Position numbers and translations under genes: made by a program. A DNA stretch of 42,295 bases. It comes from a virus. Of the stretch, positions 2,854 to 34,700 are shown one piece after another. The notes beneath the pieces are model-generated. The model ran no database searches and was not told the DNA's origin. It worked only from the letters and a program-made list of their open reading frames with translations. Location of the stretch: positions 1 through 42,295 of the IMG/VR virus record IMGVR_UViG_3300032214_000550; one strand, written 5' to 3'. How positions within the stretch are numbered: the first letter of the stretch is position 1; every line of letters starts with the position of its first letter.

Positions 2854-3129
2854 TTGACTGTCTTCATCCAATGACCCAGGTGGACAAGGAATCTCTGTAA
2901 GCATGTGCAGCTTTCTCCACAATGGATCGTGGTACGGGTGCAGGACACAGCTAACCCGACACAAGACGAATGGCCCGTCTTGGCGATACTCCATGGCGAA
3001 CCCTTGGCAAACAGACTCGGGGTGGCTCAGCTTTTTCTTGCGAATGTAGGTAAAGAACCTAGGGCTCGTCTGTGTCTTCTGTTGGCTGCTCTGGCAGCTG
3101 CTCTGTTTGTTCTGATTCTGCTCGGCCAT
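2848..3129 (-). CDS. small unknown protein, second gene of a minus-strand pair
   Basis: A 93-residue frame begins at an ATG (3127-3129) inside the 3' end of the upstream minus-strand gene and overlaps it by 71 nt in another frame. The first 25 residues are Gln/Ser-rich. The rest looks like an ordinary folded domain, with RFFTYIRKKK, VLCRVSC and LHPYHDPLWRKLHML segments and four cysteines. Codon use in the non-overlapping part resembles neighbouring genes. There is no good Shine-Dalgarno sequence, so translation may depend on the upstream gene. I do not recognise the family, and a start inside the Gln-rich part is possible. Confidence 0.45.
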   Translation of the reverse strand: MAEQNQNKQSSCQSSQQKTQTSPRFFTYIRKKKLSHPESVCQGFAMEYRQDGPFVLCRVSCVLHPYHDPLWRKLHMLTEIPCPPGSLDEDSQL

Positions 3130-3598
3130 ATCCCGGACCTGTTTCCAGCTTGTCGATGCCCATGATCTGAGACTCGCGCGTCTTCCTAGATCCAAGTGGT
3201 GGTGCATCTTCTGGTGGAACACCGAGCTTGATGTAGTAGCTCAGCTCGTATTGCAGTCTCTCTAGCCTGTCCAGTGCCCCGTTCCAATCGTTTTCGTTGG
3301 AGCCTGATGCAAGGTCCCTGCGGCACGCTGCAACAGCACGGGCCATGACCATCCTGATCATCGCAGCGTCTTCGACATCGTCCCTTGCCTCATTGTAGGC
3401 AATGCGCCGTGCGTGCTCCATCTCGCTCAGGTACGAGCTGTCTAGTGCTGCTTGAACGCCCTTGTAATACGCTGCCCGGACCAGTGGATGGATCTTCGAT
3501 CCCGGGCCAATGCTTGTATCTACCCAGCGTTGAAATCTAATAGCAACTCTAAGAGAGAAGGCGTACTGCGATCTGCTTCTCTTCCTGTTGCTAGGCAT
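3059..3598 (-). CDS. unknown helical protein with acidic tail
   Basis: A 179-residue protein I cannot assign. It begins with a basic segment (MPSNRKRSRS), continues with mostly helical sequence rich in Ala, Arg and Glu (residues about 40-135), and ends in a Glu/Gln/Pro-rich, probably disordered tail. No enzyme motif is visible. It lacks a clear Shine-Dalgarno sequence. Three CAGTTGACTG sites lie 47-90 bp upstream of its start, in the place expected for an operator, so it is the most likely target of whatever binds them. It is transcribed away from the repeat-rich intergenic region and opposite to the MoxR operon. Confidence 0.6.
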   Translation of the reverse strand: MPSNRKRSRSQYAFSLRVAIRFQRWVDTSIGPGSKIHPLVRAAYYKGVQAALDSSYLSEMEHARRIAYNEARDDVEDAAMIRMVMARAVAACRRDLASGSNENDWNGALDRLERLQYELSYYIKLGVPPEDAPPLGSRKTRESQIMGIDKLETGPGYGRAESEQTEQLPEQPTEDTDEP

Positions 3599-3644: not shown

Positions 3645-3693
3645 CAGTTGACTGCCTTCAGTTGACTGTTTGTAGCTCAGTTGACTGTTTTCA
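3645..3693 (+). repeat. three operator-like CAGTTGACTG repeats
   Basis: CAGTTGACTG occurs at 3645-3654, 3659-3668 and 3678-3687. Two copies extend into similar CTTCA or TTTTCA tails. A fourth copy, TAGTTGACTGTCTTCA, lies at 2851-2866 at the far end of the two minus-strand genes. The core is nearly its own reverse complement, as expected for a dimeric repressor site. Confidence 0.6.
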
Positions 3694-3760
3694 GGCGGCT
3701 CGAGGGTCGAGGCCGCGCTGGCGCGCGCACACACGCGCACGCGCGCACGCACACGAGGGC

Positions 3761-3980
3761 GTGCGTAGGAAAAAGTCCTACGAACAAGTGCGTAGGAAAG
3801 ATTCCTAGGACGAATTCCTACGAACAAGTGCGTAGAGCCAAAGTCTCGGTAGGCGTAGGAAAAAGTCGTACACCGAGTAGGCAAAGTTCCTACGAACAAG
3901 TGCGAACAGCCTTTGTCTTGGTCGGTGTAGGAAAAGATCTATCACCGGCCTAGGCCGCAGCCCTACGAACAGCGTAGGCC
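3761..3980. repeat. palindromic CGTAGG/CCTACG repeat array, left copy
   Basis: Repeated units pair CGTAGGA with TCCTACG around short spacers. CGTAGGA and TCCTACG frame five bases at 3764-3782. CGTAGGAA and TTCCTACG frame longer spacers further on. The phrase CCTACGAACAAGTGCG recurs. A third related core, GCGTAGGAAAAAGTCGTA, starts at 3853. Spacing is irregular, so this is not CRISPR. The first unit, GTGCGTAGGAAAAAGTCCTA (3761-3780), is repeated exactly at 8580-8599. Confidence 0.8.
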
Positions 3981-4135
3981 AAACTCCTTCGGCGGCTGAA
4001 ACGCAATAGGAGCGCGTTTGCGCGCACTTGGGGGGTGACAGGTACCCTAGGACCTAAAAACATTTTGCGCGCTTCGTGTATGAAGCGCACCGAACAAATG
4101 CAGAACCCAAAAGAACCGAAAAGCGCGCGGAGCCA

Positions 4136-4163
4136 TTGACGCTCGGGGCGCTCGCGGTATAAT
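4136..4163 (+). promoter_or_regulatory. near-consensus sigma70 promoter for the MoxR-VWA operon
   Basis: TTGACG (4136-4141), a 16-bp spacer and a perfect TATAAT (4158-4163). Transcription would start near 4170 and give a leader of about 60 nt containing tandem GACA units before the ATG at 4231. This is the strongest promoter match in the window and suggests early, host-polymerase-driven expression. Confidence 0.75.
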
Positions 4164-4230
4164 CAGAGAATGCGCGCGGCGTGCACTTCGCACTCCGGCG
4201 CTGGACAGACAGACAGGACAGGACAGACAT

Positions 4231-5268
4231 ATGGCAACCTCGACTACAGCGTCCGGCATGGGCGCGCTCGACTCTTACTTCCGCACCTTGGCAACCGAGC
4301 AGGCCGAGCAGGTCATGCGCGCATCCAAGGGCGGCACCGCAGACCGCGCGAGCGTGCGCGCCGAGGTCGATGCGCTGGCCGCTGAGATGAAGGCGGCATT
4401 GCTGAGCGGTGCGGCTCTCGGTCATGCGCGCCCGACTCCGGTCTTGGTCTCTGGCTCGTTCGTGATGACCAGCAGCGCCAAGGCTCTCCAGCAGCGGCTT
4501 GGCGTTGCAGGGAAGGCCGGCAAGCTCGCGGTGCTCATGAGCGGGCCGTCCGGCTCGGGCAAGACCTATGTGGCCGAGCAGGTGCTCGCGGCTGCGGGCC
4601 GCACGGTATACAGCGCTGAGATCTCGGACAGCACCACGCTCTCGGACTTGCTCGTGCGCCCGACAGTGACAGGCCCCAGCGCGCTGGGTTGGTCGGAGGG
4701 TCCGGCACTGCGCGCAGCGCGTGAGGGCGCGGCGCTCATCCTCGACGAGTTCGATCTTGCCTCCCCTCGTCTCATGGGCGGGCTTCACTCGTTGCTCGAC
4801 ACGGGGCGTGTGCGCCTGCTCTCGGGCGAGGTCGTGCAGGCGGCGCGTGGCTTTGTGTGCATCCTGACCTGCAACGGCCTGCGCGCGAGCAAGGGCCGCT
4901 ACTCGACGCACCAGATCAGCACGGCGCTGTCCAATCGCTGCATCTTCTTGGCCTGCGACTACCTGAGCGCCGAAGACGAGATCGCGATCCTGTCCAAGTA
5001 CGGGACCGATGCACAGGCGCGCATTGTGCGCGGCGATCTGGAGGCACTGCGCGTGATGTTCGAGGGCGGCACGCTCCAGCACGCCCCGAGCCCGCGCATG
5101 GGCGCGGCAGTGGTCGCGGCACTGGCCGCCGGCATGAACCGCGCAGAGGCGTGGGCGCTGGCGCTCTTGGACGGTCTCGACAAGGCCGCAGCGGCAGAGG
5201 CTGCGCGCGCACTGGCACGCGCCGAGGAACTGCGCCGTGCCGGCGGTGCTCAGGAGGTGACGCTGTGA
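4231..5268 (+). CDS. MoxR/CobS-type AAA ATPase
   Basis: The 345-residue protein is a MoxR-class AAA+ ATPase, a chaperone-like motor that normally works with a VWA protein. Visible elements are Walker A GPSGSGKT (105-112), Walker B LILDEFD (169-175), a sensor-1-like ILTCNG (211-216) and an arginine-finger candidate R236 in ALSNRC. Residues 1-95 form a helical, Ala-rich N-terminal part, and the C-terminal 60 residues are helical. Phage copies are often labelled CobS, but no cobalt-insertion partner is visible and that label should not be taken literally. The ATG at 4231 follows a GACA-rich leader with only a weak Shine-Dalgarno match. The stop overlaps the GTG of the VWA gene as GTGA, a strong sign that the two products act together. 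Confidence 0.85.
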   Translation: MATSTTASGMGALDSYFRTLATEQAEQVMRASKGGTADRASVRAEVDALAAEMKAALLSGAALGHARPTPVLVSGSFVMTSSAKALQQRLGVAGKAGKLAVLMSGPSGSGKTYVAEQVLAAAGRTVYSAEISDSTTLSDLLVRPTVTGPSALGWSEGPALRAAREGAALILDEFDLASPRLMGGLHSLLDTGRVRLLSGEVVQAARGFVCILTCNGLRASKGRYSTHQISTALSNRCIFLACDYLSAEDEIAILSKYGTDAQARIVRGDLEALRVMFEGGTLQHAPSPRMGAAVVAALAAGMNRAEAWALALLDGLDKAAAAEAARALARAEELRRAGGAQEVTL

Positions 5269-6668
5269 GCTGGTTCTATGATCTAGAGCCCGAGGTGGGC
5301 AGCATCGCGCGCATTCACCAGCGTCTGCTGGAGGTCATGGCACCGCGCGCCGTGGACCGACTCATTCGTGAGTCGGGGAAGGCCTACACCGCTCCGGTCT
5401 TGGCAGAGCGTAATCGTGCAGCGCGCGCGGCGCGCGGTGAGGTCTTGACCCGCCCGCTCTGGGACGGCAAGGACCTCGACGCGCGCGGTGTTCGGCGTGT
5501 TCGCGAGAGGGTCGCGAACCAGCGCACGGTGCTGCTGCAAGAGGCCGCGCGCAACGGCGGCTCTAGGGCGCACGAACTGGTTGGGGACTTGACAGTCGGT
5601 GACTTGGCCGATCTGGCGGTGTATCACTGGGCCGATGCACACTTCCGCGCAAGGGCAAAGGCGAGCGGGCAGCGCGTCAATTCCAAGAAGCTCAGCGAGT
5701 ACGGCACGCGCGCGGTGCTGGCTGTGTCGAGCGGTCTGGGCAAGGCTGCGATCTTCGAGGCCTTGGCGAGCTTTTACCATGGTCGACAATCGGAGAGCGG
5801 CGAGGGCGGCGTAGAGGTCGTGGAGAACGACATCGAGAAGGATCGCGACCGGCGCGGTGAGCCCGAGGGGCGCGGCAAGTCGGGCGAGAAGGTCAACCCC
5901 GACTCCTCAGCAGGTCGCGGCACCGGCGAGATCTGGAACTACACCCGTTGCCCCAAGGGCACCGAGGCGCGCGCGGTCCGGTCGCGCGGCAAGGTGAGCC
6001 TAGAGCAGCTGGCCCAAGAGCTGGCCGATGCACTCCGCCCGCGCATCGTGCCGGACGACACCGGCGAGAGCCTGCGCGCACCGGCAGATGTTGCAGCATG
6101 GGCCTGTGGCATCGAGCCTACACCGTTCGGCGAGAGTGTCGCAGCACTGGCCAGTCCGGTGGAGTTGATGGTGTTTGTGGATGCATCGAGCAGCACCAGC
6201 GCCAACGCTGCGCACGATGCACAGCACAAGGTTGCGACCGAGATTGTGAAGGCCTGCCGCGCGGCGGGGCATCTCGTCGCGGTCGCGCCGTGGGGTAACT
6301 GGAGCGGCAGTCTGGAATCGCGTGAGGCGCTGGGCTGGAGCGAGCCCTTGCCCGAGGTGGGCATCGGCTGGTATCCGAATTGTGGCACGGACCCGAATGA
6401 CGCCATGGAGGCGGTGCGACAGCTGCGCGCAACCAGCCCGAGCGCAGGCCGTGCGCGCGGTGTCGCGCTGATCCTGACAGACGGCGATATGTCGCTGCCG
6501 GAAGAGTACCCGCGCGGTGTCACTTGTGCGCTGTGGGCACTGGGGTCCAGCGCGCAGATTCCGGCCGGCTGGCAAGGCCCGTCGATGATGTCGCGGAACC
6601 TCGACACGGTCGGTGTGGATCTGGCAGCCAGCGACCTGGTGCGGTTCCTCAGTGGTCTAGGCGGTTAG
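5265..6668 (+). CDS. VWA-domain (CobT-like) partner of the MoxR ATPase
   Basis: The 467-residue product has a C-terminal von Willebrand A domain (about 298-467) with a complete metal-ion-dependent adhesion site: DASSS (306-310), the threonine of GTDPNDA (about 375) and TDGD (405-408). Residues 1-175 are helical and basic. A charged, Glu/Arg/Gly-rich linker covers about 175-225, as in CobT-like proteins. It starts at a GTG inside the preceding stop, and AGGAGGTGA (5252-5260) supplies a very strong Shine-Dalgarno sequence seven bases after its GGAGG core. MoxR ATPases and VWA proteins are known to form remodelling complexes, so a joint role on a target protein or complex is inferred. The substrate is unknown. 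Confidence 0.8.
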   Translation: MSWFYDLEPEVGSIARIHQRLLEVMAPRAVDRLIRESGKAYTAPVLAERNRAARAARGEVLTRPLWDGKDLDARGVRRVRERVANQRTVLLQEAARNGGSRAHELVGDLTVGDLADLAVYHWADAHFRARAKASGQRVNSKKLSEYGTRAVLAVSSGLGKAAIFEALASFYHGRQSESGEGGVEVVENDIEKDRDRRGEPEGRGKSGEKVNPDSSAGRGTGEIWNYTRCPKGTEARAVRSRGKVSLEQLAQELADALRPRIVPDDTGESLRAPADVAAWACGIEPTPFGESVAALASPVELMVFVDASSSTSANAAHDAQHKVATEIVKACRAAGHLVAVAPWGNWSGSLESREALGWSEPLPEVGIGWYPNCGTDPNDAMEAVRQLRATSPSAGRARGVALILTDGDMSLPEEYPRGVTCALWALGSSAQIPAGWQGPSMMSRNLDTVGVDLAASDLVRFLSGLGG

Positions 6669-6769
6669 GCCGAGAGCGGCGCGCGGTGCAGGTGGTGCCG
6701 TGCGCGTCCGACAATCCAGCCCTGTACTCGGACGGGGCAACACTGACAAGTAAACCAGACGGACAGATC

Positions 6770-7342
6770 ATGCAGTTCGACAAGAACAACCCACCCGCTG
6801 CTGTGCGGGAGCTCTCTCTACATGCCAAGGACCTTGGCCAAACCATCGAGCGTATTGCACGGCGTGCGCTCCGGCGCGCGGTCCAGCACGGCGACCACAC
6901 CGAGGCCGAGATTGACGAGGCCGATGCCGCAGAGCTGACCACCGCACTCAATCGGTGCCCGAGCTGGGCGGTGACTGAATGCAGGGTGCAGCAGCCCGAG
7001 CTGGCCAACATCCAGCCGGACGAGATCCTGAACTATGCCAAGGTGTGCAGTGCCACAAGCACGGCTTACACGGCGGGGATCATCGCGGGCGCGTGGATCA
7101 TGCTCGAAGCCGAAGAGCGGGCCGGCAAGGAGAGCAAGCACCAGCTGGCGCAGTTGATGCAATCCATCCTCGTGGGCTCAGCGTTCGAGATGGCGGGGCG
7201 CGCGCTGCGCGTGCGCGCATTGTCCGAGGATGCTGCAACAGAGGCGGCGATGGAGGCTGCGCAGCGCGCGGTGGAGCAGTCCAAGGACGAGCTTTGGGTG
7301 TACGAGGCGATGCAAGAGCAAGAGAAGGGCGGTGCACAATGA
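6770..7342 (+). CDS. unknown helical protein in the MoxR-VWA operon
   Basis: This 190-residue protein is not recognised. It is almost entirely helical and Ala/Glu-rich, with an early RIARRALRRA basic helix (about 26-40), a TAGIIAGAWIMLEA segment near the middle and a C-terminal QRAVEQSKDELWVYEAMQEQ helix. The ATG at 6770 is the first plausible start; reading further upstream gives Arg/Gly-rich sequence overlapping the VWA gene in another frame. A 101-bp gap precedes it, with a GTCCGA/TCGGAC inverted repeat (6706-6733). Its stop overlaps the next ATG as ATGA, so it belongs to the same transcript. Base use is as GC-rich as the ATPase genes. Confidence 0.65.
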   Translation: MQFDKNNPPAAVRELSLHAKDLGQTIERIARRALRRAVQHGDHTEAEIDEADAAELTTALNRCPSWAVTECRVQQPELANIQPDEILNYAKVCSATSTAYTAGIIAGAWIMLEAEERAGKESKHQLAQLMQSILVGSAFEMAGRALRVRALSEDAATEAAMEAAQRAVEQSKDELWVYEAMQEQEKGGAQ

Positions 7343-7578
7343 CCAGCAAGCCGGACAAGCTGGACGATGGTGTGCAGCGCACGCGCGTGCTCATGGCCCG
7401 CAGCGCGGGCGATGTGGCGCTGCTGATCGGGTGCGCGATGCCCGAGACGCTGCGCACCGTGGCGGGGATCAGCATCTCCCACAATCCCGAGAGCAAGGGG
7501 GCTGTCAACCGCTGGGCATCGGCGCTCTTGTCGCGAGAGATTCGCGGCGATGTTGTGGTCCTGATGGTGGAGGCCTGA
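7339..7578 (+). CDS. small unknown protein in the MoxR-VWA operon
   Basis: A 79-residue protein starts at an ATG overlapping the previous stop (ATGA, 7339-7342). It begins with a charged segment, then has a moderately hydrophobic helix (VALLIGCAMPETL), an NRWASALLSR segment and a C-terminal beta strand (GDVVVLMVEA). No family is recognised. Its position and tight coupling to its neighbours are the main evidence that it is real, along with codon use matching the operon. The following gene begins 3 nt after its stop. Confidence 0.6.
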   Translation: MTSKPDKLDDGVQRTRVLMARSAGDVALLIGCAMPETLRTVAGISISHNPESKGAVNRWASALLSREIRGDVVVLMVEA

Positions 7579-7581
7579 GCT

Positions 7582-8133
7582 ATGGAAGAGATGAACGAAC
7601 CCGACTTTGTCATTCCGAATGACAAAGCGATCAAGCGCAAGCGCGGTGGGCGCGGGCCGTCCGCGTTCCCCAAGGTCCAGCCTGTGCCCATCGGCGACAT
7701 TGTGCGCGCCATTCACAAGCAAAGCCCGCAGTGGATGGATCCCAAGACGGTGCAGTGGTTCGGGACCAAGCTCCCGAGCCAAGGCTACAGGGGTGCGGGG
7801 GATCTCGCATTCTTTGCCACTGGCGAGCGGCTGGAGCGGGGCAGGCCTGTGACCTCGTTTGGCATTGTGCGGTGCGTGGACCTGATCACCGGCCAGATGA
7901 TTACGGTCGAAGAAGTCGAGTGGGCCGTGTCCATTGCCAATGCGATCATGGCGCTGGTCCCGACCAATGGCCGGACCTCACGGGCACGGGCCATGGCAGA
8001 GGCACGGGCCAAGGCCTATGCCCGTGCCTCCCACCTGTTGGCAGGTGTGCGGATGTCGGGCGGTGTGGGCCTCGACGCTCTCACGAAGGCCCGTGAGGTT
8101 CACCGCAGAATGGGGATGGGGGTCGACGAGTGA
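7582..8133 (+). CDS. unknown basic protein in the MoxR-VWA operon
   Basis: The 183-residue product starts at ATG 7582 with GGAGG (7568-7572) nine bases upstream. After a basic N-terminus (KAIKRKRGGRG) comes a mixed alpha/beta domain with AIHKQSPQWMDPKTVQWFGTKL, GDLAFFATGERL and SFGIVRCVDLITGQMITVEEVEWAVSIANAI segments. The C-terminal third is a long Ala/Arg-rich helix. I do not recognise it and see no catalytic signature. Its TGA is overlapped by the GTG of the membrane peptide gene, so it is part of the same operon. Confidence 0.65.
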   Translation: MEEMNEPDFVIPNDKAIKRKRGGRGPSAFPKVQPVPIGDIVRAIHKQSPQWMDPKTVQWFGTKLPSQGYRGAGDLAFFATGERLERGRPVTSFGIVRCVDLITGQMITVEEVEWAVSIANAIMALVPTNGRTSRARAMAEARAKAYARASHLLAGVRMSGGVGLDALTKAREVHRRMGMGVDE

Positions 8134-8252
8134 GCCGCCGGCAACCCGACGAGCGCTCTGCCGGCGAGGTGCTGGCCGAGCTGTTGAGCGTGTGCGCGAT
8201 GTCAGCGGGCATCGTGCTGGGCCTGTGGGTCCTGTGGGTGATGACGCGCTAG
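8130..8252 (+). CDS. 40-residue single-pass membrane peptide ending the MoxR-VWA operon
   Basis: A GTG overlapping the previous stop (GTGA, 8130-8133) opens a 40-codon frame ending in TAG 8250-8252. The N-terminal 13 residues are charged. Residues about 14-38 form a hydrophobic helix, CAMSAGIVLGLWVLWVM, ending with Thr-Arg, so one transmembrane pass is predicted. Four-base overlaps with stops are the rule in this operon, which supports translation. Function is unknown; it could anchor an operon product at the membrane or be a small inhibitor. The palindrome CCCGTATACGGG (8256-8267) follows directly. Confidence 0.5.
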   Translation: MSRRQPDERSAGEVLAELLSVCAMSAGIVLGLWVLWVMTR

Positions 8253-8549
8253 GAGCCCGTATACGGGGACTTGATGGGGCAGCATGGGCCTTTGTGCCTG
8301 TGCTGCCCTGCTTCATTTATAGGGCCTGCCGGAGCGGTTGGTGTGGATCGTGCTAGGCGGTGTGCCGTGGGATCACCGGCGGGCGGTGAGCGGTGAAGGC
8401 TGGGAGTCGAGGGGATGGGTGGGGATGGTGTGGTGCTGTTGGACGGATTCGCACGAGCCCGAGGCGCAGCCTGTGCCCGATCCCCGACTTCGTCTACCCT
8501 GTCCCGCCCTGCTTGCCCTCCGATGGCCTACGATCCTATGCAGCCTCGA

Positions 8550-8640
8550 CTAGGCACGATGCCTACGGCGTTCGCACTAGTGCGTAGGAAAAAGTCCTAG
8601 TCCGGCGTAGGACGGAGGCGTACACCCCCACGCGCGCGCG
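8550..8640. repeat. palindromic CGTAGG repeats, right copy, with CG tract
   Basis: This stretch contains TAGGC/GCCTA arms around five bases (8551-8565), the palindrome CGCACTAGTGCG (8573-8584), the exact 20-mer GTGCGTAGGAAAAAGTCCTA (8580-8599) shared with 3761-3780, and GTCCTA/TAGGAC arms around eight bases. A run of CG dinucleotides (8631-8640) follows, mirroring the alternating tract outside the left array. Confidence 0.75.
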
Positions 8641-8717
8641 GGTCCCATGCTCGGGGGGCCTCGATATTTTAGCTCCAACATATATACAAACTAGCCCTAA
8701 CCCCCTACACACCCCTC

Positions 8718-8745
8718 TTGATAGGGTCCCCTTTTCTGCTAGGAT
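8718..8745 (+). promoter_or_regulatory. candidate promoter for the late operon
   Basis: TTGATA (8718-8723), a 16-bp spacer and TAGGAT (8740-8745). The start of transcription would fall only a few bases before ATG 8756. AGGAT could instead act as the ribosome binding site, so the call is tentative. Confidence 0.4.
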
Positions 8746-8755
8746 CCATACACAT

Positions 8756-9355
8756 ATGGCCAAGAGGTCTCGCACATCTTCTAGTCTGAAAGACCTTGCC
8801 AAGAATCACCTAGACAAGATTGAGATCGGTGCTGTTGATAAGCAGCTTGTCCCGGTCCCTAAAAAGCCGCCGCCGGTGATTCGCCGTCAGTTAGAAAAGC
8901 CGAGCAGCGTGCCTGTTGACTTTAAGTTGTCGACCCTCAGGGCGCTGATGGTAGATAGCCTTGAGGCTAACAATGGCTTAAACGCAAAGGCTGTTGTAGA
9001 GACACTGGTACAGAAGGCTATCGAGGGTGATAGCTACTGTATGCGCCTGTTGCTAGAACGTGTGGATGGTCTGGTGACTAAGAATGTGAATGTGACGGGC
9101 AGTGTGGCAGTTGGTCAGCAAGTGACCTTGGTTGACATGAGGCATGTAAATGTCTCTCTGCCATTACCAATTGAAAGCCTCTCCCCTCTCTCTGCACTCT
9201 CTCCCCACTCGAAAGAGACTTCTTTTGAGGGGGGAGTACTCTATTCTCAGAGAGATCTCTTAGAGAGTAGTACTCCAGAATCCCCACCCCCTACCCCCTC
9301 CCCTTATCATACAGAGGTTTCGGAGCCTGTCAATGACAACCCAACAGAAAGTTGA
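8756..9355 (+). CDS. terS: terminase small subunit (putative)
   Basis: The 199-residue protein directly precedes the large terminase, overlapping it by 23 nt, which is the usual place for the DNA-recognition subunit. Residues about 55-110 hold LRALMVDSLEANNGLNAKAVVETLVQKAIEGDSYCMRLLLERVDG, cited here in part as AIEGDSYCMRLLLERVDG, a pattern common in small terminase or terminase-associated phage proteins. The N-terminus is basic and Ser/Lys-rich. The C-terminal 60 residues are Ser/Pro-rich and probably disordered, encoded by a pyrimidine-rich, palindrome-bearing stretch. ATG 8756 follows AGGAT by ten bases. The assignment rests mainly on position and the central motif. Confidence 0.65.
   Translation: MAKRSRTSSSLKDLAKNHLDKIEIGAVDKQLVPVPKKPPPVIRRQLEKPSSVPVDFKLSTLRALMVDSLEANNGLNAKAVVETLVQKAIEGDSYCMRLLLERVDGLVTKNVNVTGSVAVGQQVTLVDMRHVNVSLPLPIESLSPLSALSPHSKETSFEGGVLYSQRDLLESSTPESPPPTPSPYHTEVSEPVNDNPTES
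9233..9276. repeat. nested palindromes near the 3' end of the small terminase gene
   Basis: GGAGTACT (9233-9240) and AGTACTCC (9269-9276) are perfect inverted arms around a segment whose centre is the palindrome AGAGATCTCT (9251-9260). The flanks are strongly purine- or pyrimidine-biased (CTCTCCCC on one side, CCCCACCCCC on the other). The place and symmetry fit a packaging-recognition site or an mRNA hairpin controlling the large terminase. Confidence 0.55.
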
Positions 9356-10787
9356 GGTTCGTGGTGCACCTTCCCAGCTGTGGGACATGTGCCAGAACCC
9401 AGGGGTTGAGAAGGTGAAGGAACTGGTCATTGCTGGTCCTGGTGGTACTGGCAAGAGCCGGGGCATTGGCCACTTCTTGTGGTGGTTCTTGAACAACTAC
9501 CCCATGTCCCGGGTGCTGGTCGTGCGCAAGACCAGGGTGTCGTTGTCAGAGGCGTTCTTGAAGACCTGGGAACAGGATGTGGTTCCACCTGGCCACGAGA
9601 TCCTGAACGGGCCACAAAGGGCGCATCGGCAATCCTGGAAACTGGAGAACGGCTCGGAGATGGCCACCGGTGGGCTGGATAATCCGACCAGGCTGTACTC
9701 CACAGACTGGGACATCATCTATGTCCAAGAGTGCACAGAGCTGACAGAGGACGAGTGGGAGCGGCTGCGGCGTGGTCTTCGTAACTGGAAGTCGCCGACC
9801 CAGTTCCTGATGGGTGACTGCAACCCAGAGAGCGAGAGACACTGGCTATATCGCCGGTTCTTGGACGGCAGAACAACGCGCCTGGACAGCAAGCACGCTG
9901 ACAATCCCAAGTGGTTCTCTGCGACCAAGAACGAGTGGACCCCCGAGGGAGTGGCCTATATCCAGAACCTGGCCAGGCTAACAGGTGTGCGCAAGCGCAG
10001 GCTGTTGTTCGGCGAGTGGGTCTCGTCCGAGGGCGCTGTGTGGGAAGAGTGGGACGATTCCAGAAACCTGGTAGACCGTCCTGTTGGCAACTCGATGATG
10101 ATCATGGACCGGCTCGACATCCGCTGGACCTTTGCCAGCATGGACTGGGGCTACACAGCAGCTGGCGTGCTCCAGATCTGGGGAGTAGATGGAGAACGGT
10201 GTATGTACCTGTTGAAAGAGTACTACATGGCTGGCCAGCAGCTGGAATGGTGGGGCGAGAAGGTGGTCAAGTCCTGGATCGACTACAAGCTCCAGGCCAT
10301 TGTCGCTGACCCGTCTAGACCAGATGCGATCAAGCTGGTGAACGACAAGCTCAATGACTCAGGGGCACCGCGACTGGTCCGGGCAGCGAACAATCGCCGA
10401 ACAACCATTGGCGGTGACCTGGGCGGACTAGACCTGGTGCGCGAGAAGATCCGGCCCGATCCCAAGACCGGCAAGGCCTCGTTGTTCATTGTCAGAGATG
10501 CTCTCGACACCCGGGATCCCAACTTGCACGAGAAGGGATTGCCATGCTCAACCGTAGAAGAGATTCCCGGGTATGTGTATGCACAAGGCGAGCACGGAAG
10601 ACTAGACACAGAAAAGACTGATCCAATGTGCTCGGATCACGGCTGCGATGCGTTACGATATGCCGTAACCTTCTTGCACAAGCGCGACATGACACCCGAG
10701 ACTGATGAAAAGCGCGGTGCATCTGTCACATGGGGACAGGTGCTTGGTCATGATGAGGTTTGGGAGAAGTCCAAGGACAGTCACTGA
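9333..10787 (+). CDS. terL: terminase large subunit
   Basis: The 484-residue packaging motor has both expected domains. The ATPase holds Walker A GPGGTGKS (35-42), an adenine-region VVRKTR, Walker B DIIYVQECTEL with catalytic E133, and the coupling motif GDCNP (161-165). The RNase-H-like nuclease has D271 in MDWGYT, D326 in IVADPSRP and a final acidic SDHGCDALRYA near 455. The ATG overlaps the small subunit gene, with GGAG (9322-9325) seven bases upstream. Length is normal for the family. It threads DNA into the prohead through the portal encoded immediately downstream. Confidence 0.95.
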   Translation: MTTQQKVEVRGAPSQLWDMCQNPGVEKVKELVIAGPGGTGKSRGIGHFLWWFLNNYPMSRVLVVRKTRVSLSEAFLKTWEQDVVPPGHEILNGPQRAHRQSWKLENGSEMATGGLDNPTRLYSTDWDIIYVQECTELTEDEWERLRRGLRNWKSPTQFLMGDCNPESERHWLYRRFLDGRTTRLDSKHADNPKWFSATKNEWTPEGVAYIQNLARLTGVRKRRLLFGEWVSSEGAVWEEWDDSRNLVDRPVGNSMMIMDRLDIRWTFASMDWGYTAAGVLQIWGVDGERCMYLLKEYYMAGQQLEWWGEKVVKSWIDYKLQAIVADPSRPDAIKLVNDKLNDSGAPRLVRAANNRRTTIGGDLGGLDLVREKIRPDPKTGKASLFIVRDALDTRDPNLHEKGLPCSTVEEIPGYVYAQGEHGRLDTEKTDPMCSDHGCDALRYAVTFLHKRDMTPETDEKRGASVTWGQVLGHDEVWEKSKDSH

Positions 10788-26193: not shown

Positions 26194-28746
26194 ATGCCTG
26201 TTAAGTACGACAACTCTTCCAATGGCAACGGCGGTGGTGATGCGTTCCTGGCTGGATTCCTTGGCGGAGTCATGGAGTCAGGGGAGAATGTTTGGAGCAA
26301 TCTTCAGCGCAAGAGAAAAGAAGATCGCGATTACCAGCTACAGGTAGACAAGTTCGAGGAGGACAAGAAGTACGCCAAGACCGCAGAAGAGCGGGCAGTG
26401 GCGCAAGATGAGTACAACAAGTGGGTCCGCGAGCAGGCAAAGGCAAAGACTGCTGCCGACGAAGCTCGCAACAAAACCATTCAGGGCCGCGAAGACATTG
26501 AGTGGGGGCAATCTCAGAAAGACCGCGCGCGTGTAGAGGACTTGCAGGCCAAACAAGATGCGGCTATCGAGGCCGGGCAAGAGGCCGAAAGCTACGGGGC
26601 TGGCTTGCCGGTACAACGCCCCCAGCTGATGCAGCAGTACGACGAGGGCGTTCAGCGGGCAGAAGCAGACGCCGAAATGTCAGGCTTTGCTTTGGACGCT
26701 GCTGCTGCGTCTCCCCTGTCCAATGCCTTTGGATGGGCCAACCAAGAAATGGCCGACGAGCTGAAGACTCGAGTTGCCCGAGTCTACAGCAACGAAGCGG
26801 CTGATCGCTTTTCCACGGTGCTGGCTGGCGTACGCCAAGATGCCGCTATTAAGGTCCAAAACATTGCCAAGCAGAATCCCGCTGCTGCGGCAAGCCTAGC
26901 TGCGGCTGTAGAGACAGAGTTCGTCAAGATCCAGGACGAGATGGAGAAGCGGGTCGCAAAAAAGGAAGTAGATGGATTTGACAAGCAGCCGTGGGCCAAC
27001 ACCGAGTTTGGCCAGTCCATCCTAGGTGAAGTTGCTAATGCACGGGCGACAGGCCAGGACCCACGAGAGATTGTTAAACTGGTTAACACCAAGCGCCAAG
27101 AGCGCGCTGCCCAGCTTAGCAATCTACAAAGAATCAATACCGTTAGAGCGGCTGTTGAGCGCGGGATTCAATTCTATACCAACCAGTCGGGCTTGAGCGG
27201 AGCATATGCAGCAGATCGAATTGCAGCTGACAACAAAGGCGCCAGGTTGCAAGCCTTAATGATTGATCTCGAAACAGCAAGCTTTGATGACCTAGGAAGA
27301 ATCGTCAAGGAATACAAGGAGATCACCGGAAGCACTGGACTTCCTGGCTTTGACGAGCAGGCCAAGTTCGTCAAAGACATGGCCGGACTTTCCACGAAAA
27401 CGGAGACACCGGACCCGACCACGCCAGGAGCGGTTATCACCACAGAGACACCCGTGTTCTCTAGTGAAGAGGTTCGCGCTGCCGCCCTCGGAGTTCAGGC
27501 TAGAAACATGGGGATCCCCAATCCTGATCCTGGAAGCAACGACCCTGTCTACAACACCCGCCCCGCCCAAGAGTCGCTTGGCATTCCTGCTATGCCGAAC
27601 GAGTCTGGTGCGCTTGGTCGCGCGGTTGGAGCCCTTAGCCTTGACGACCGCAGAAAGTGGTCTGATGCTGGTCGCCCGATTACTTGGGATGGCAAGCCTG
27701 CCCTTCCCAGGCCTGATGGCAAGGTTTACACCGCTGGGTACCAGGTTGTCAGAGACCAGAATTTAAACAACGGAAGGTGGACTCTTATCCCGACCGTCTG
27801 GGACGGAAGGCCTGTTGACCCCAAAGAAGCAACCAAGCGGGCAATTAAGCATCTCAAGGACAACCCAGAAGCGACATTCGAAAACCCTGGACTTGATGGG
27901 GATAAATACAACCCGCAACTAGCGCTCAAGGATTTGCTTGATCGCCAGCAGTTTGAGGAACAAAAAGAACGCTCGCAGGGCGCGAGAGAGATGGTTGAAG
28001 GCCGTGGCCGAAAAGTAGAACGGTCTAAGCCCACCGCTGGAGGAGCTAACGCCCCTTCTGCGCCTAAGTCCAATCCAGCCCAGGCTGCTCCCCAGGCGCA
28101 GGCCAAGCCGCAGGCGCAAGCCGCTCCTCAGCCTCCCCGCACAACTGGATCTGCAAGAGCCGACCTGGTCGAAGCTACTCTTCGCAACCAACCTACAGAT
28201 GGAAGATCTGTTGAGGGCGCAGGCAAGTACTCGTTTACTGCTGGGGTAGAGGGTTACCTTGGGTCGTTTAGCAATCAAACAGGCCCTATCGCAGCCCAGA
28301 TTGCCGCATTAGAGAAACAACTTTCGGCAACACCCAAGACTGATGCTGAAGCGGAACAACAGGCAAGCTACCGCAGGCAGCTGGAAAAACTCAAGTCCGC
28401 CCTAGCCCAGGGGACGGCTTACAAAACCACGGACGCTGGCAAGAACCTGTTTAAGTCTGCTCAGTCTGCCGAGGCCATGATTAACGAGCTAATGAAGGCA
28501 GCTTCTGCTAGCGGCGGATTTTACGAAAAGGCTATTCGCGAGCTCAAAGGCCTTCCCGCTCAGCCATCGACACCGGAAGAGGTCGCTGCCTGGAGAAAGT
28601 ATTTACAAGCTAATTTTGGCGACGATTTGGGCACGCCCCGGGCCCCTGGAGATGTCGGCTTGCGGGCTCGGCGAATTGCAGCTGAAGCAGATCGTGCCCT
28701 TGGCGAATTGTACGAAGGCTTGAACGCAGGCGTTGGAGGTTCATGA
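26194..28746 (+). CDS. large internal virion protein (putative)
   Basis: The 850-residue protein starts at ATG 26194 with AAGGA six bases upstream. It has a Gly-rich N-terminus (NGGGDAFLAGFLGGVME), a strongly charged coiled-coil region (about 35-125), further helical sequence to about 430, and a small recognisable module near 520-590 (GRWTLIPTVWDGRPVDPKEA...AIKHLKDNP), a pattern seen in several phage internal proteins. A Pro/Ala/Gln-rich linker follows (about 605-650), then helical C-terminal sequence. I see no lysozyme or transglycosylase signature. Its stop overlaps the giant gene's ATG (ATGA). Composition and position support an ejected core protein. Confidence 0.6.
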   Translation: MPVKYDNSSNGNGGGDAFLAGFLGGVMESGENVWSNLQRKRKEDRDYQLQVDKFEEDKKYAKTAEERAVAQDEYNKWVREQAKAKTAADEARNKTIQGREDIEWGQSQKDRARVEDLQAKQDAAIEAGQEAESYGAGLPVQRPQLMQQYDEGVQRAEADAEMSGFALDAAAASPLSNAFGWANQEMADELKTRVARVYSNEAADRFSTVLAGVRQDAAIKVQNIAKQNPAAAASLAAAVETEFVKIQDEMEKRVAKKEVDGFDKQPWANTEFGQSILGEVANARATGQDPREIVKLVNTKRQERAAQLSNLQRINTVRAAVERGIQFYTNQSGLSGAYAADRIAADNKGARLQALMIDLETASFDDLGRIVKEYKEITGSTGLPGFDEQAKFVKDMAGLSTKTETPDPTTPGAVITTETPVFSSEEVRAAALGVQARNMGIPNPDPGSNDPVYNTRPAQESLGIPAMPNESGALGRAVGALSLDDRRKWSDAGRPITWDGKPALPRPDGKVYTAGYQVVRDQNLNNGRWTLIPTVWDGRPVDPKEATKRAIKHLKDNPEATFENPGLDGDKYNPQLALKDLLDRQQFEEQKERSQGAREMVEGRGRKVERSKPTAGGANAPSAPKSNPAQAAPQAQAKPQAQAAPQPPRTTGSARADLVEATLRNQPTDGRSVEGAGKYSFTAGVEGYLGSFSNQTGPIAAQIAALEKQLSATPKTDAEAEQQASYRRQLEKLKSALAQGTAYKTTDAGKNLFKSAQSAEAMINELMKAASASGGFYEKAIRELKGLPAQPSTPEEVAAWRKYLQANFGDDLGTPRAPGDVGLRARRIAAEADRALGELYEGLNAGVGGS

Positions 28747-31700
28747 CGATGGCAATGCAGGACCCGAATAATCAGTCGTGGTGGTCGCAGTACAAAACAC
28801 TTGACGACGCGTATGCGGCTGGGCCGGATGTGTACAAGAATGTGCTCGACACCTACAAGGCGCTCAGCCGCGCCGATGTTGACGACGAGCTAATTCGTGG
28901 AACTGCAAGCCGCCTTGGGTACGCCCCCGTTGCCAAGAACGAGGGCGGGCAACTTGAAGACCTAAGCGACATGATCAAGTCGCGATCTTCTGCGACTGGC
29001 ATGGAGCTGACCCAGGACTATGCCGCCACCTTAGCGCGTGGGTTTGCTGGAGTGCCAGGAGACATTGCCGGTCTTCTTGGGTCTATGGCCAGGCCGCTTG
29101 GATACGAGGGCGCGACCGAGTGGGGCGTTGCCTGGCAAGAGGGCGTTAACAGCTTTATCCCGACCTCGAACGAGTACCGCGACACACTGGCTAAAGATGC
29201 CGGGTACGCGACCTCGACCACATTGCAATCGGCTTTTGGCGGCGCTGGCATTGCTAAGACGGCATTTACCGCCGCTCCAAAGCTCGGTGCCATTGGCCGC
29301 ATGGGCATGGCAGGCAGGCAGTTGGCGGCTGCCGAAAAGATGTCTGCGGCCACACAAGCGCTGTCTACAGCTAGAAGCGCAGCGGCCCCCGTATTGTCCG
29401 ATATCGCCAAGGCGCAGGAGGTCTTGTCGCAGGCTCAATCAGCCTATCGTAGCGCCCGCGCTGCTAACATTGCCCGTGCCAGCACATACACTGGCATGGC
29501 CATCGAGGCTGGATCTACGGGCAAAGATGCTTTCCAAAAGGGAGCAGATCCATACACTCAATTGTTTGCAGCAGCCCTGGGAGCGGCTGCTGGATCCACT
29601 GAGTTCATTGCAGGTGAACGGCTGATTCGCAAGATTGTTGATCCTGGCAACCTTGGCAAGTATCGCGATGTTGCCAAGGGCATTGGCCAGCAGATTGGCG
29701 GCGAGATCCTTGAAGAAGAGATCGCGGCGGTTCCGTCCGCGCTGGCCCAGTACCTGACAGAAGATCAAGGGCGCTCCTACATGGACCTTCTGAAGCAAAA
29801 CATGCTTCAGTCCGCCCAGGTAACGCCATTGGCCGTGCTTCCGTTCTCTGCTGTGTACGGTGTTCGTGCGAGCCAGATGGTTCGTCGCAACAAGCAGTTC
29901 GTCAGAGAGGTCGAGAATGTCACCAAGAATGCTGGTGCGTTCGTTGACCCGAACGTGCCCCTTGGCCTGAAGCTAGATGTTGTAGAAAAGCGGCTCCCTG
30001 AGATCGCTGCCGCTAACGACCTAGAGACACTGGCAGAGGTGGTTGGCCTGTCCAAGATGATGGGCGCGCCAGTGCACCTGTCGTCTGCCGCAACAGAGCG
30101 TGTCAAGACAATCGCAGAGCGCCTTGCTGCCCGGGGATTGCGGGTTGTCTTTGTCCAGCCCACTGTGGACAAGGACGGCAATTTCGACACAACCGACATT
30201 GCTGGCATTGACCCGTCGTTTGCCCCTCGCCCCGACATGGCCCCTGGGGATGTGGCTGGATACTACGACCCGGCGTCCGCGACTGTGTACATCAACACTG
30301 CCCAGCCTGAGGCAGTTCAGATCATGCAAGGCCTGGTGCACGAGACAGTGCACGACCTAGGCGAGACACACCCTGGCGGCATTGCTGGTGTGGCGAACAT
30401 GCTTGACCAGGTGTTCCCTGGCACATTCCGGAACTACATGGGCGCTGTTGCGAACATGTATGCAAAGGACTGGGCCAAGCTGACACCAGAGCAACAGCAG
30501 CACGCTCTCAACAGCGAGGGTGTTGCAACCTTTGTGTCTCAGGGCCTGGCAGGGTTCATGGGCATGGCAATGACCAATCGCGAGATGCTGTCGCGCATTG
30601 GCTACCAAGACCCGGGCATCATGTTCGACCTTGCGCAATCGGTCTTGTCTGTGTTGCGCATCCAGCCTCAGTCGTTCACCCAACGCGAGCAAGCAATCCT
30701 GTCTAGCCGACTGGCCAGCCTTGCCCGTGTTGTTGCGCCCACTGTTTCGTTCGAGGGCGACAAGGGCGCTGATGTCGATGGCATCATGGGCGCGCGCGTA
30801 GCCTCAGAGCTTTACCGCCTGCTGAACGAGCACCTGGATCTCACAGGTCGGACCGTGGATGTTGCTGTCAACATGCCCGAGGGCGGAGACCTACAGACAG
30901 AGCTTCAGTCTGTGATGGGCATGAAGCCTGAAGAGGCCGCGCGTGTTGCATCGGACGTTGCCCGGCGCGAGAAGATTGTCAACATCCTGAAAGAGCGCAG
31001 GGGCCTGGGGAAGCCTGTGCCGAAGGAGACCGAGACAAAGGCAGAGGAGGTCCCGCCGCCCTCCACCAGTTCTACCACCGGTGCACCTCCCGAAGAGGAG
31101 GCGAAGCCCACTGACCCGACAGCTGTAAATGCTGCGGAGAATGTCAAGCTAGCCCAGCGGCTAGAGCCGTTCATCGAGTCGCTGAAAGAAGAGCAGCGCC
31201 AGAACCAAGCATCTGGCACCACAGACCAGCAGCTAGATGATCTGATCGCCTTGTCCGAAGACTTGCTTAGCACAGTCACCCAGGACGAGACCGCTGACCA
31301 GGCTGGGTTCGAGCAAGACTTCCAAGAGCTGCAAGGCATGCGCCCTGCTCGTGCTGCTGCCCCTACAGCCCCTGCAACAGGCACAGCGCCCGAGACTGGG
31401 TCAACAGAGCCGACATGGAAACGCCGCCAACGCGAGCGCGCTGCACGGCGCAATGCCGCCAACCGGGCTAAGAACGAGGCCCGTCGTGCACAGGCAGCGC
31501 CTGTCGAGGCTGTTGAGCCTGAGGCCCCTGTGGAGGCCGCAGAGCCTACCGCACCGGTAGAGGCGACAACCAAGCCTTCTGAGCCCACAAAGCCTGGCAA
31601 AGAGCAGCAGGGCACGCTCCCTGGTTTCTTTAGCGCACGCATCACAGCAGAGGCCCTGGAGAAGGCAGTTGCCGAGGGCTCGATCAAGGTTGGCACCAAG

Positions 31701-34700
31701 AAGCTGACAGTGTGGAGCCAGTGGCAACAGTTTGCCCAACGGTTCAATGACACCCTCCAGAAGCTGAACTACGCAGAGTTCCGTGCTGTTGGTGAGTGGA
31801 ACAAGCTGCCCGAGGCGCGCAAGAAGGCGATCATCAAGCGCAACCTGAAGGCGATCAAGGCTGCTGCTGACCAGGCTGCTCAAGACATCCTGCCCTGGAT
31901 CAAGAACAACCGGGCATTGCAAGGCTACTACGCAGACGACCTCAAGTTGGTCAACATGCTGTGGCAGCAGATCTATGGCGACAAGTTCACCCAAGACCAC
32001 CTAGACCTGTTCCAGGTTGTGTCTGCAATTCTGTCTCCGTCTACCAAGCTGCGCGGCAACATCGACGAGGCCTCGCGTGTGTTGACAAACTACATGTCAA
32101 CCGGCGACTTCGGTGTCGAGACCGATCCGTACGCCTTTGTGAACGAGAAGGGAACCGAGACCCTCAAGTTCCGCTTCTCTGTGGCCCGCTCGGCAGTGTC
32201 CATCTCTGGCACGACAGCGTCTAGCAAGGCACGCTCGCTCACGATCTTGCGCGACATGATCGAGGATGCTGGTGGTCTAGAGAAACTAAAGGCCCACCTG
32301 CTTGAGCCTGTGAGCCTCAAGGAGTACGCGGATCTTCGTTTCCGCCACGGATTCAAGGGCCTGGGATCGCTTGCGTCTATTCGCCAGGTTGTTGGCGCGG
32401 CCACTGGCCAGAAGATTGGCACAGGCAAGAACGACACCATGATGTACCCCCGGGCCATGATGTTTGGCCCCAAGGTGGGAGCGTACTTGCTGAACTCCTT
32501 GGGCGACAGCCGCTACCAAACGGTAGACATCTGGGAGTCTCGGTTCATTCGCTCGTACTTCGACAAGATCATGTTCATTCGCGATGAGCAGACCAAGGAG
32601 CGCAAGCGTTTGCGCGAGCTGCCCACCGGCCCTGAGTACAAGCTGATGAACATGTTCGCCGCTGAGATGAAGCGGTCACTGGAGGAGCTTAGCGGAGAGA
32701 AGTTCACTGCATCGTCGATGCAGGCTCTGCGCTGGTTCTACATGCTTGAGCTGGCCCGCCGGGCTGGCAACACCAAGGCAACCACAGACGGAACTGTAAG
32801 CGGGTACCTAGATGCAGCTCTCAGCAAATATTATGGACCTGATTACCGCAGTAGCGGACGAGGCCTTCCTCAAGAGTCTCAAGTATCAGCAACAGAGACA
32901 GAGGCTGAGCGTATTGCAGGCCAAGAAAGGATTGCCGCAGAGCAAGCTGTTGAAGAACAGGACCCAGAGCTCAGCTACGAAGCTCCCAGCGAGCGGCAGG
33001 TTGACGGTGTCAACTCAACCCAGGGGTTCTACTCCCGGCGAGTCGCGGTCGTATCCCCAATCGGGTTCTTCGACAATCTAGACAAGGCCATCAGTTCTGC
33101 GCCGGACTCGTTCGAGACCGAGTCAACGCCCGACCGTGAGGTTCCTGGGCGCGTGGTTGACATTGGCGGTGGCAAGACCAAGGAGATCCCTGGTCGCACG
33201 ATCAAGGGGTCCAAGACCACAGCCTGGAGCAAGCTCATTGCCCACCTGTCCAAGACACCCGGTGCGCTTAAGCAGGCTGTCGAGGTTGGGATGGTCAGGG
33301 ATGTTAATGGGCAGTACGAGACAGGCCCCGGGCTGCGCATGTACTTTGAGTCGCAGAAGCTAGATCCGAACCTCGGGCGTGCTCAAGAAATTGACATGAC
33401 CGACATCGACTCGTTCTGGAACACAACTTTGCTTGGTGTCCAGGGCGGAGCCAAGGCTGTTACGGCCCAGTCTCTCGGGCGGGCAACAACCGAAGTTATT
33501 AGGCCAGATCCGGCAGAGGTTGCTGCGCTCCAGAAGGAAGCGGATGATGCAAAGCAAGAATCCAAGTCGGCGTACAGAGAGTCTCGATTGGACAGCTTTG
33601 GTGGCGTTGCAAGGCAGAACGAGTTTGAAATGTCGTTCCCGCCTGGCCTGCGCGCAGACATGCTTTCAACAATTGAAAGCGTGGCAAAGATCTTAAATGA
33701 TCTAGGCGCTCAGGACGCAAGAGGCTTAGAGAGATTTATTGACCCAAGAGAGCTTAAGCTGCAAAGCATTGTCAGCGACGCAGTGTTGCTGTACGAGCGT
33801 CTTGACCAAGACAGCTCCAGCGGCAAGCTAGAGGATTTCTTTGTCAAGGCATTTAGAAAGGGATACACCAAGGACAAAACAGGGTCTGTTGCTAGGTTTA
33901 TGGACCAGTACAATGGCCTAAACCCTGGGTCTAAGCAGGCTATGCGCTCTCTTTTGTTTAGAGCAGCATTGTCTCCGCGGCCAGACATCTACTTGAGCTT
34001 TGTAAAAAACTCGGCTGAAGCCATTGACGGGGTTGTTGATGCTCTCAAGGCCTTGAACGAAGCGCAGCTGGCTTTGTTTGGCAGAGGTCTTGCAATTTAT
34101 GGAGAGACTGCCGACCAAGGTGGGTTACAAGCATTTGTTGAAGCCCTGCCAGATGGCACCAATCAAGTAGTCTTTAGTGGAAAAAATCCAAACCAGCAAT
34201 CACAGAAATCTGTGGATTTGGATTTCCAGCAGACAAAAGAACAGATGAATGCTTGGGCGACCAATCCGCAGGTCGCAGGAGTTCTTTACAAGCCTTACAC
34301 CCTAACAGGTGAAAGCGCAAAGGGCGAGCTTGGCGGCAGTCCCAATCAAAGTCCTTCCCTGCATGCATACAGAATGATCCAAGCTATGTATGCAGCAGGC
34401 TTTTACCAATCCTTCTCCGACAGAGTTTTCCTGGTCGGAAATGCAACGGGGCCTGGTGTTTACACTGGCGGCAATTTTTCGCTCCACGGCATTGGCGATG
34501 CCATGGTCGAGAACAGCTTGGTTAAAAGCAGGTTTGCGTTTGCTGAGCAGTCTGAAAGACCAGGTGTTTACGACTTCCGAGACATGGCTAGTGCGTATAC
34601 AATTGGGTCTGTCCAGGGAACCGGGATTGGTTTTGCGCTTGATCCCGGCCAAGGCCTGCGGCTTAAAACGTCCTATAGCAAACACACCGTCCTTGACACC

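Follow-up and report, generated by a model that had tools for sequence, protein, structure and literature searches.

Arrays of a shared 17-bp dyad site lie upstream of a MoxR-VWA operon and of the terminase genes in an uncultured phage

The DNA before the terminase genes of an uncultured phage raises the question why an exact 20-bp repeat stands on both sides of an operon for a MoxR-class ATPase, a VWA protein and small companions. A preliminary description had offered two answers, a cassette between the repeats that had been acquired as a unit or two copies of one control element bounding an operon. The window analysed here, that is the whole stretch of 42,295 bp, is virus record IMGVR_UViG_3300032214_000550 (positions 1-42,295). 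It carries genes for a terminase, an SU10-like portal, DnaB, a YqaJ/RecE-like exonuclease and a single-strand annealing protein; a gene for a DNA polymerase was not recognised. In contig L018, a homologue of the DnaB gene from the right end of the window is joined to homologues of the left-end genes, the gap at the junction being about 640 bp where about 680 bp would be expected from the window (from coordinates). Since L018 joins the two ends, the window appears to be a genome that is almost complete and circularly permuted. Isolate phages are distant, with TerL identities of at most 34% (top match Streptomyces phage Dagobah, 34%), and the DNA from 3.7 to 9.3 kb had no match among them. The useful relatives are therefore all uncultured contigs, which are few and mostly truncated.

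The 20-mer proved to be exact at both positions and in the same orientation, as had been described (Table 1). Near copies start at 3788 (two mismatches) and 3851 (three mismatches), while no further copy was present in the rest of the 42,295 bp or in 100 shuffles, and an IMG/VR search with 18 of its bases returned a single unrelated AT-rich contig (L015). The 20-mer represents one variant of a 17-bp site, GTAGG-N7-CCTAC, which accounts for the reported clusters of related palindromes. With at least nine of ten arm positions matching, the whole window contains eleven such sites, all within 3.0-8.6 kb and all non-coding except the one at 3046, which touches the stop codon of up1. The strict form STAGG-N7-CCTAS was observed eight times where 0.06 were expected; spacer lengths other than 7 gave 0-2 matches, and arms permuted without a change in composition gave at most five. 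The first array includes a 72-bp tandem duplication (3806-3877 and 3878-3949). In all eleven sites the spacer is A-rich on the same strand. The arms vary unpaired (GTAGG..CCTAG, CTAGG..CCTAC, GTAGG..CGTAC) and some copies do not fold as single strands, which favours a site in duplex DNA over a hairpin; a role as RNA or DNA hairpins was rejected because not every copy folds, and an Rfam search gave no matches. A giant ORF, together with the palindromes, prompted us to consider an N4-type virion RNA polymerase that uses hairpin promoters; this was also rejected. The product of this ORF (28743-39014, 3423 aa) carries an LPD38 domain close to its C-terminal end (residues 3126-3292) without other Pfam matches, and it resembles large PHROG families of unknown function, that is, large phage proteins and not an RNA polymerase.

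Six rightward, closely packed genes occupy 4231-8252, with overlapping start and stop codons at MoxR/VWA, g190/g79 and g183/g40, in agreement with a single operon. Its base use differs from that of the neighbouring genes, as had been noted from the density of GCGC: GC content is 67% over 4 kb versus 53-59% in all non-overlapping 4-kb windows, and GCGC occurs 11-38 times per kb in the operon genes versus 0-16 times in others. Codon usage, which had been proposed as a second check, was a weaker mark of the operon; several short genes elsewhere in the window deviate as strongly. The first array lies between the divergent up1 gene and the promoter-like site of the operon, about 146-371 bp upstream of the latter. 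The second array is situated past the terminator-like hairpin of the operon and about 95-168 bp upstream of the promoter-like site of terS. Because of this placement we read the repeats as upstream regions of two consecutive transcription units and not as the two ends of one element. Leftward intrinsic terminators predicted inside the arrays were judged to be a by-product of site geometry.

Table 1. Coordinates of features in and around the MoxR-VWA operon of the window.
Feature	Position	Strand	Remarks
GTAGG-N7-CCTAG, single site at 3' end of up1	3046..3062	+	arm match
up1	3059..3598	-	divergent from operon; kept beside operon in L005 and L007
Second repeat family, three exact CAGTTGACTG copies, upstream of up1	3645..3687
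Alternating purine/pyrimidine CG/CA tract, 35 nt, Z-DNA-prone	3721..3755		longest in window
20-mer, exact copy 1	3761..3780	+	exact match
First array, seven dyad sites	3765..3990	+	3765, 3792, 3805, 3855, 3877, 3950, 3974
GGCGTAGG-N8-GTAC element before MoxR	3852..3871	+
Sigma70-like promoter TTGACG-16-TATAAT	4136..4163	+	11/12 matches; consensus match only
MoxR/NorQ-class AAA+ ATPase, 345 aa	4231..5268	+	AAA_5, E=1.1e-19
VWA protein, 467 aa	5265..6668	+	MIDAS D306-x-S-x-S / T375 / D406
Companion g190	6770..7342	+	44% identical in L004
Companion g79	7339..7578	+	homologues in L004, L005
Companion g183	7582..8133	+	weak DUF7447 match, E=1.1e-4, below Pfam cut-off
40-aa peptide (g40)	8130..8252	+	one hydrophobic stretch
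Terminator-like hairpin after operon	8275..8310	+	15 pairs; consensus match only
Second array, three dyad sites and one GGCGTAGG-N8-GTAC	8550..8623	+	dyads 8550, 8584, 8607; element 8604
20-mer, exact copy 2	8580..8599	+	exact match
Conserved block GGGTCCC...CGGGGGGCC...TTTAGCTCCAAC upstream of terS	8640..8690	+
Promoter-like TTGATA-16-TAGGAT, extended -10, before terS	8718..8745	+	consensus match; kept in L004
terS-position gene, small terminase candidate	8756..9355	+	named by position only
Terminase large subunit	9333..10787	+	family match

An alternating CG tract had been reported on the outer side of each cluster. The left-hand tract stands out, the runner-up alternation in the window measuring only 15 nt; the right-hand one is weak, with 12 nt at 8629-8640 in a window that has 13 runs of at least 12 nt. 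Prominent alternating, Z-DNA-prone tracts are also found in non-coding DNA directly upstream of MoxR in L005 (4171-4186) and L008 (2588-2611). The CAGTTGACTG family has a near copy at 2851-2860 of the window and appears in L007 as a 19-nt repeat in three copies (3841-3859, 4241-4259 and 4302-4320) around the up1 homologue, partly within coding sequence.

The operon occupies the same slot, before the terminase, in L004, L005/L018, L007 and L008, the TerL identities of these operon-carrying relatives being 75-93%. Dyad sites are shared in part: L004 has two at the homologous place before terS, L005 has one before MoxR, and none was found in L007 or L008. In the more distant L109-L111 (TerL 36%), the homologue of gene o2326 lies directly against or overlaps terS, and in the 43,426-bp record of L111 neither MoxR nor VWA was detectable, which is firm insofar as this record is complete. 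L016 and L017 (TerL about 50% identical) showed no operon before terS, in L017 within 2.9 kb of sequence. L017 carries a phrog_1221 gene (1056-2111) upstream of terS, at the place of the MoxR operon in the group of the window. Judged from presence and absence across these relatives, the slot is variable over a long time scale, being empty, filled by another gene or filled by the operon in either orientation. Older gain of the operon in an ancestor of the group and loss elsewhere are both possible on these gene orders.

These comparisons bear on the proposal of a cassette that is delimited by the repeats and was transferred whole when they recombined, which we regard as improbable. The operon is a GC island, it is absent from L109-L111, and DNA identity to L004 rises abruptly to 82% from 8569 onwards, right at the second array. 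However, the diverged block does not begin at the first array (3761). Identity is about 78-80% up to 5228 and falls to 41-70% over 5228-8568, the minimum lying where the VWA gene begins, so that the left edge lies inside the 3' end of the MoxR gene, at the MoxR/VWA junction. Relatives whose operon occupies this slot have no such paired repeats. Operon GC exceeds that of the flanks in L004, L007 and L008 and less so in L005; as a property common to relatives, it is old and does not mark a recent arrival. The sites form arrays that precede two units instead of single flanks, and at the o2326-terS junction of the empty relatives, where a clean gap with one repeat left had been envisaged, no left-over dyad site was seen. 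Of the two alternatives offered initially, two copies of one control element hence fits best.

The operon is inverted at the same place in both L007 and L008, and the palindromic sites could in principle be substrates for flipping that gives this orientation. We consider this highly improbable, as the arrays are in direct and not in inverted orientation, the inverted forms are devoid of sites and no recombinase was recognised among the scanned genes. L007 and L008 group together in the MoxR tree (100/100) and the portal tree supports the same split (89/100). Orientation thus follows a single MoxR split, and one old event suffices.

The reading that we prefer, and to which we give an even chance, is that one DNA-binding protein recognises a shared control site before the operon and before terS. 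Binding of this protein to both arrays would coordinate the timing of the operon with that of the packaging and structural genes. This is consistent with the presence of sites in both upstream regions and with the hairpin that parts the operon from the second array. It also agrees with the distribution of GGCGTAGG-N8-GTAC, which stands before MoxR and terS in the window and occurs twice before terS in L016/L017, and which was absent from the other unrelated loci searched. Several findings speak against it: L007 and L008 are without sites, the dyad sites lie clear of the promoter-like sites, whereas those of a simple repressor would be expected to overlap them, and the same spacer direction in eleven of eleven copies, which may not be independent, is unexpected for a symmetric dimer site. 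Furthermore, no regulator was found. The only candidates, up1 and o1806, match no DNA-binding family. The 178-aa product of o1806 (1806-2342) has a conserved Cys/His motif, CSxPGC...PLCxxHYNR, and is possibly a zinc- and DNA-binding protein and as such a candidate regulator of the arrays; its predicted structure was discarded (pLDDT 45).

Alternatively, the sites could be packaging or replication elements, bound by terminase for cutting of ends near terS or, as direct repeats in a replication origin, by an initiator; the array at 3.76 kb would then be a second such locus. We judge this to be the main rival, though rather unlikely. It would explain the uniform orientation of the A-rich spacers and the persistence of a related element before terS in L016/L017, where no operon was seen. 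A non-coding block that is first GC-rich and then AT-rich adjoins the second array and is conserved before terS in L004, L005, L007, L008 and L010; it is possibly a cos or pac site or a late promoter. The Dagobah record starts with an annotated (terminal) repeat of 1,187 bp whose end lies immediately ahead of the terminase genes, and the genome of the window has DnaB and recombination genes without a recognised DNA polymerase. Most sites, however, lie 4.7 kb from terS and before another operon, the first array has no pronounced AT-rich stretch, and the contigs of L004, L005/L018, L016 and L017 cross the block unbroken.

The identification of a MoxR-VWA pair was borne out. The ATPase matches AAA_5 with 71 bits against a cut-off of 22, and the segments GPSGSGKT, LILDEFD, TCNG and SPR (Walker A, Walker B, sensor) are conserved in its alignment. 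Its PDB profile matches comprise midasin, NorQ (1.6e-21), CobS (1.1e-16) and CbbQ. It also matches phrog_249, the cyanophage 'CobS' family (4e-33), and cyanophage CobS proteins are 32-35% identical to it; a closest relationship to CobS was rejected, since NorQ scores higher (79.8 versus 63.9 bits). No confirmed relative was found in bacterial and archaeal genomes. In the VWA protein the MIDAS residues D306, S308, S310, T375 and D406 are invariant in five relatives. The protein has no Pfam match, its top PDB profile match is NorD (0.0019), and a model with a pLDDT of only 56 retrieved the VWA domains of midasin and NorD as top Foldseek matches. Neither the VWA protein (INPHARED, tblastn) nor g183 matched isolate phages. 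No function could be assigned to any of the four companions. The membrane peptide that had been noticed corresponds to the 40-aa ORF, and the operons of L004 and L005 likewise end in a hydrophobic peptide. A known anti-phage defence system was rejected, the PADLOC families giving weak partial matches only (best E=0.0011).

The ATPases of the window and L004 share 87% identity in the last 199 residues, which are those available, as compared with 43% for the VWA protein, 44-54% for the companions and 96% for the portal protein. This pattern fits VWA protein and companions that were replaced or change very fast under a conserved motor, and it points to them as the part that sets the target. NorQ/NorD, in which a hexameric ATPase strains its VWA partner while the MIDAS holds the target (PMC13036017, PMC9976466), provides the basis for a working model. 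By similarity of sequence and fold, the phage machine should work in the same way: a ring of the ATPase would hold the VWA protein and strain it using ATP, and the MIDAS site of the latter would grip a target protein. Taken as a whole, the locus is an accessory operon of six genes, and its variable slot has early genes on one side and the terminase on the other in a phage of about 42 kb. Conceivably, though in our estimate unlikely, it encodes a phage-specific machine with a conserved motor and a quickly exchanged VWA adaptor and companions, the last of them a small membrane peptide; such a machine would remodel complexes of the host or of rival phages (e.g. in counter-defence or the takeover of membrane enzymes) and be switched on with packaging via the shared arrays. 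Viral MoxR-VWA pairs are common, and the shared arrays provide a concrete handle on the timing of such an operon relative to packaging.

Comparison with known systems places the phage pair close to NorQ/NorD (CbbQ/CbbO), with which it shares adjacent AAA+ and VWA genes and an intact MIDAS and which is among the best matches. It differs by its four unrelated companions and by the N-terminal part of the VWA protein, which is not recognisably that of NorD; a target enzyme of NorQD or CbbQO (nitric oxide reductase, Rubisco) was not recognised among the scanned phage genes. The CobS/CobT pairs (cobST) of tailed viruses (PMC8651126) likewise combine AAA+ and VWA genes in a tailed phage; here, in contrast, the ATPase is nearer to NorQ and the VWA protein is without an isolate-phage match. 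Viral CobST has been proposed to use the CobN of the host (PMC8651126), and no CobN-like gene was present among the large annotated ORFs. In Escherichia phage N4, gp24 and gp25 are adjacent genes in the same kind of position; gp24 aligns with the MoxR profile over 128 columns (probability 66), whereas gp25 against the VWA profile was not significant (probability 0.7). Bacillus phage 0305phi8-36, likened here by description, has genes for two MoxR-chaperone subunits, the second identified by linkage (PMC2147016), and differs in being a 218-kb phage. The arrays resemble the stoperators of Cluster A mycobacteriophages (PMC9283540) in that many short non-coding copies of one site share one orientation. 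Stoperators, however, are asymmetric 13-bp sites that are distributed genome-wide and have a known repressor, in contrast to 17-bp dyads in one region. A stoperator system was rejected, as all sites lie in 3.0-8.6 kb and no repressor family was matched. MoxR-VWA or cobST pairs in tailed viruses have thus been described before (PMC8651126, PMC2147016); new here are the companion set, the shared arrays and a slot next to the terminase whose content varies and can be inverted.
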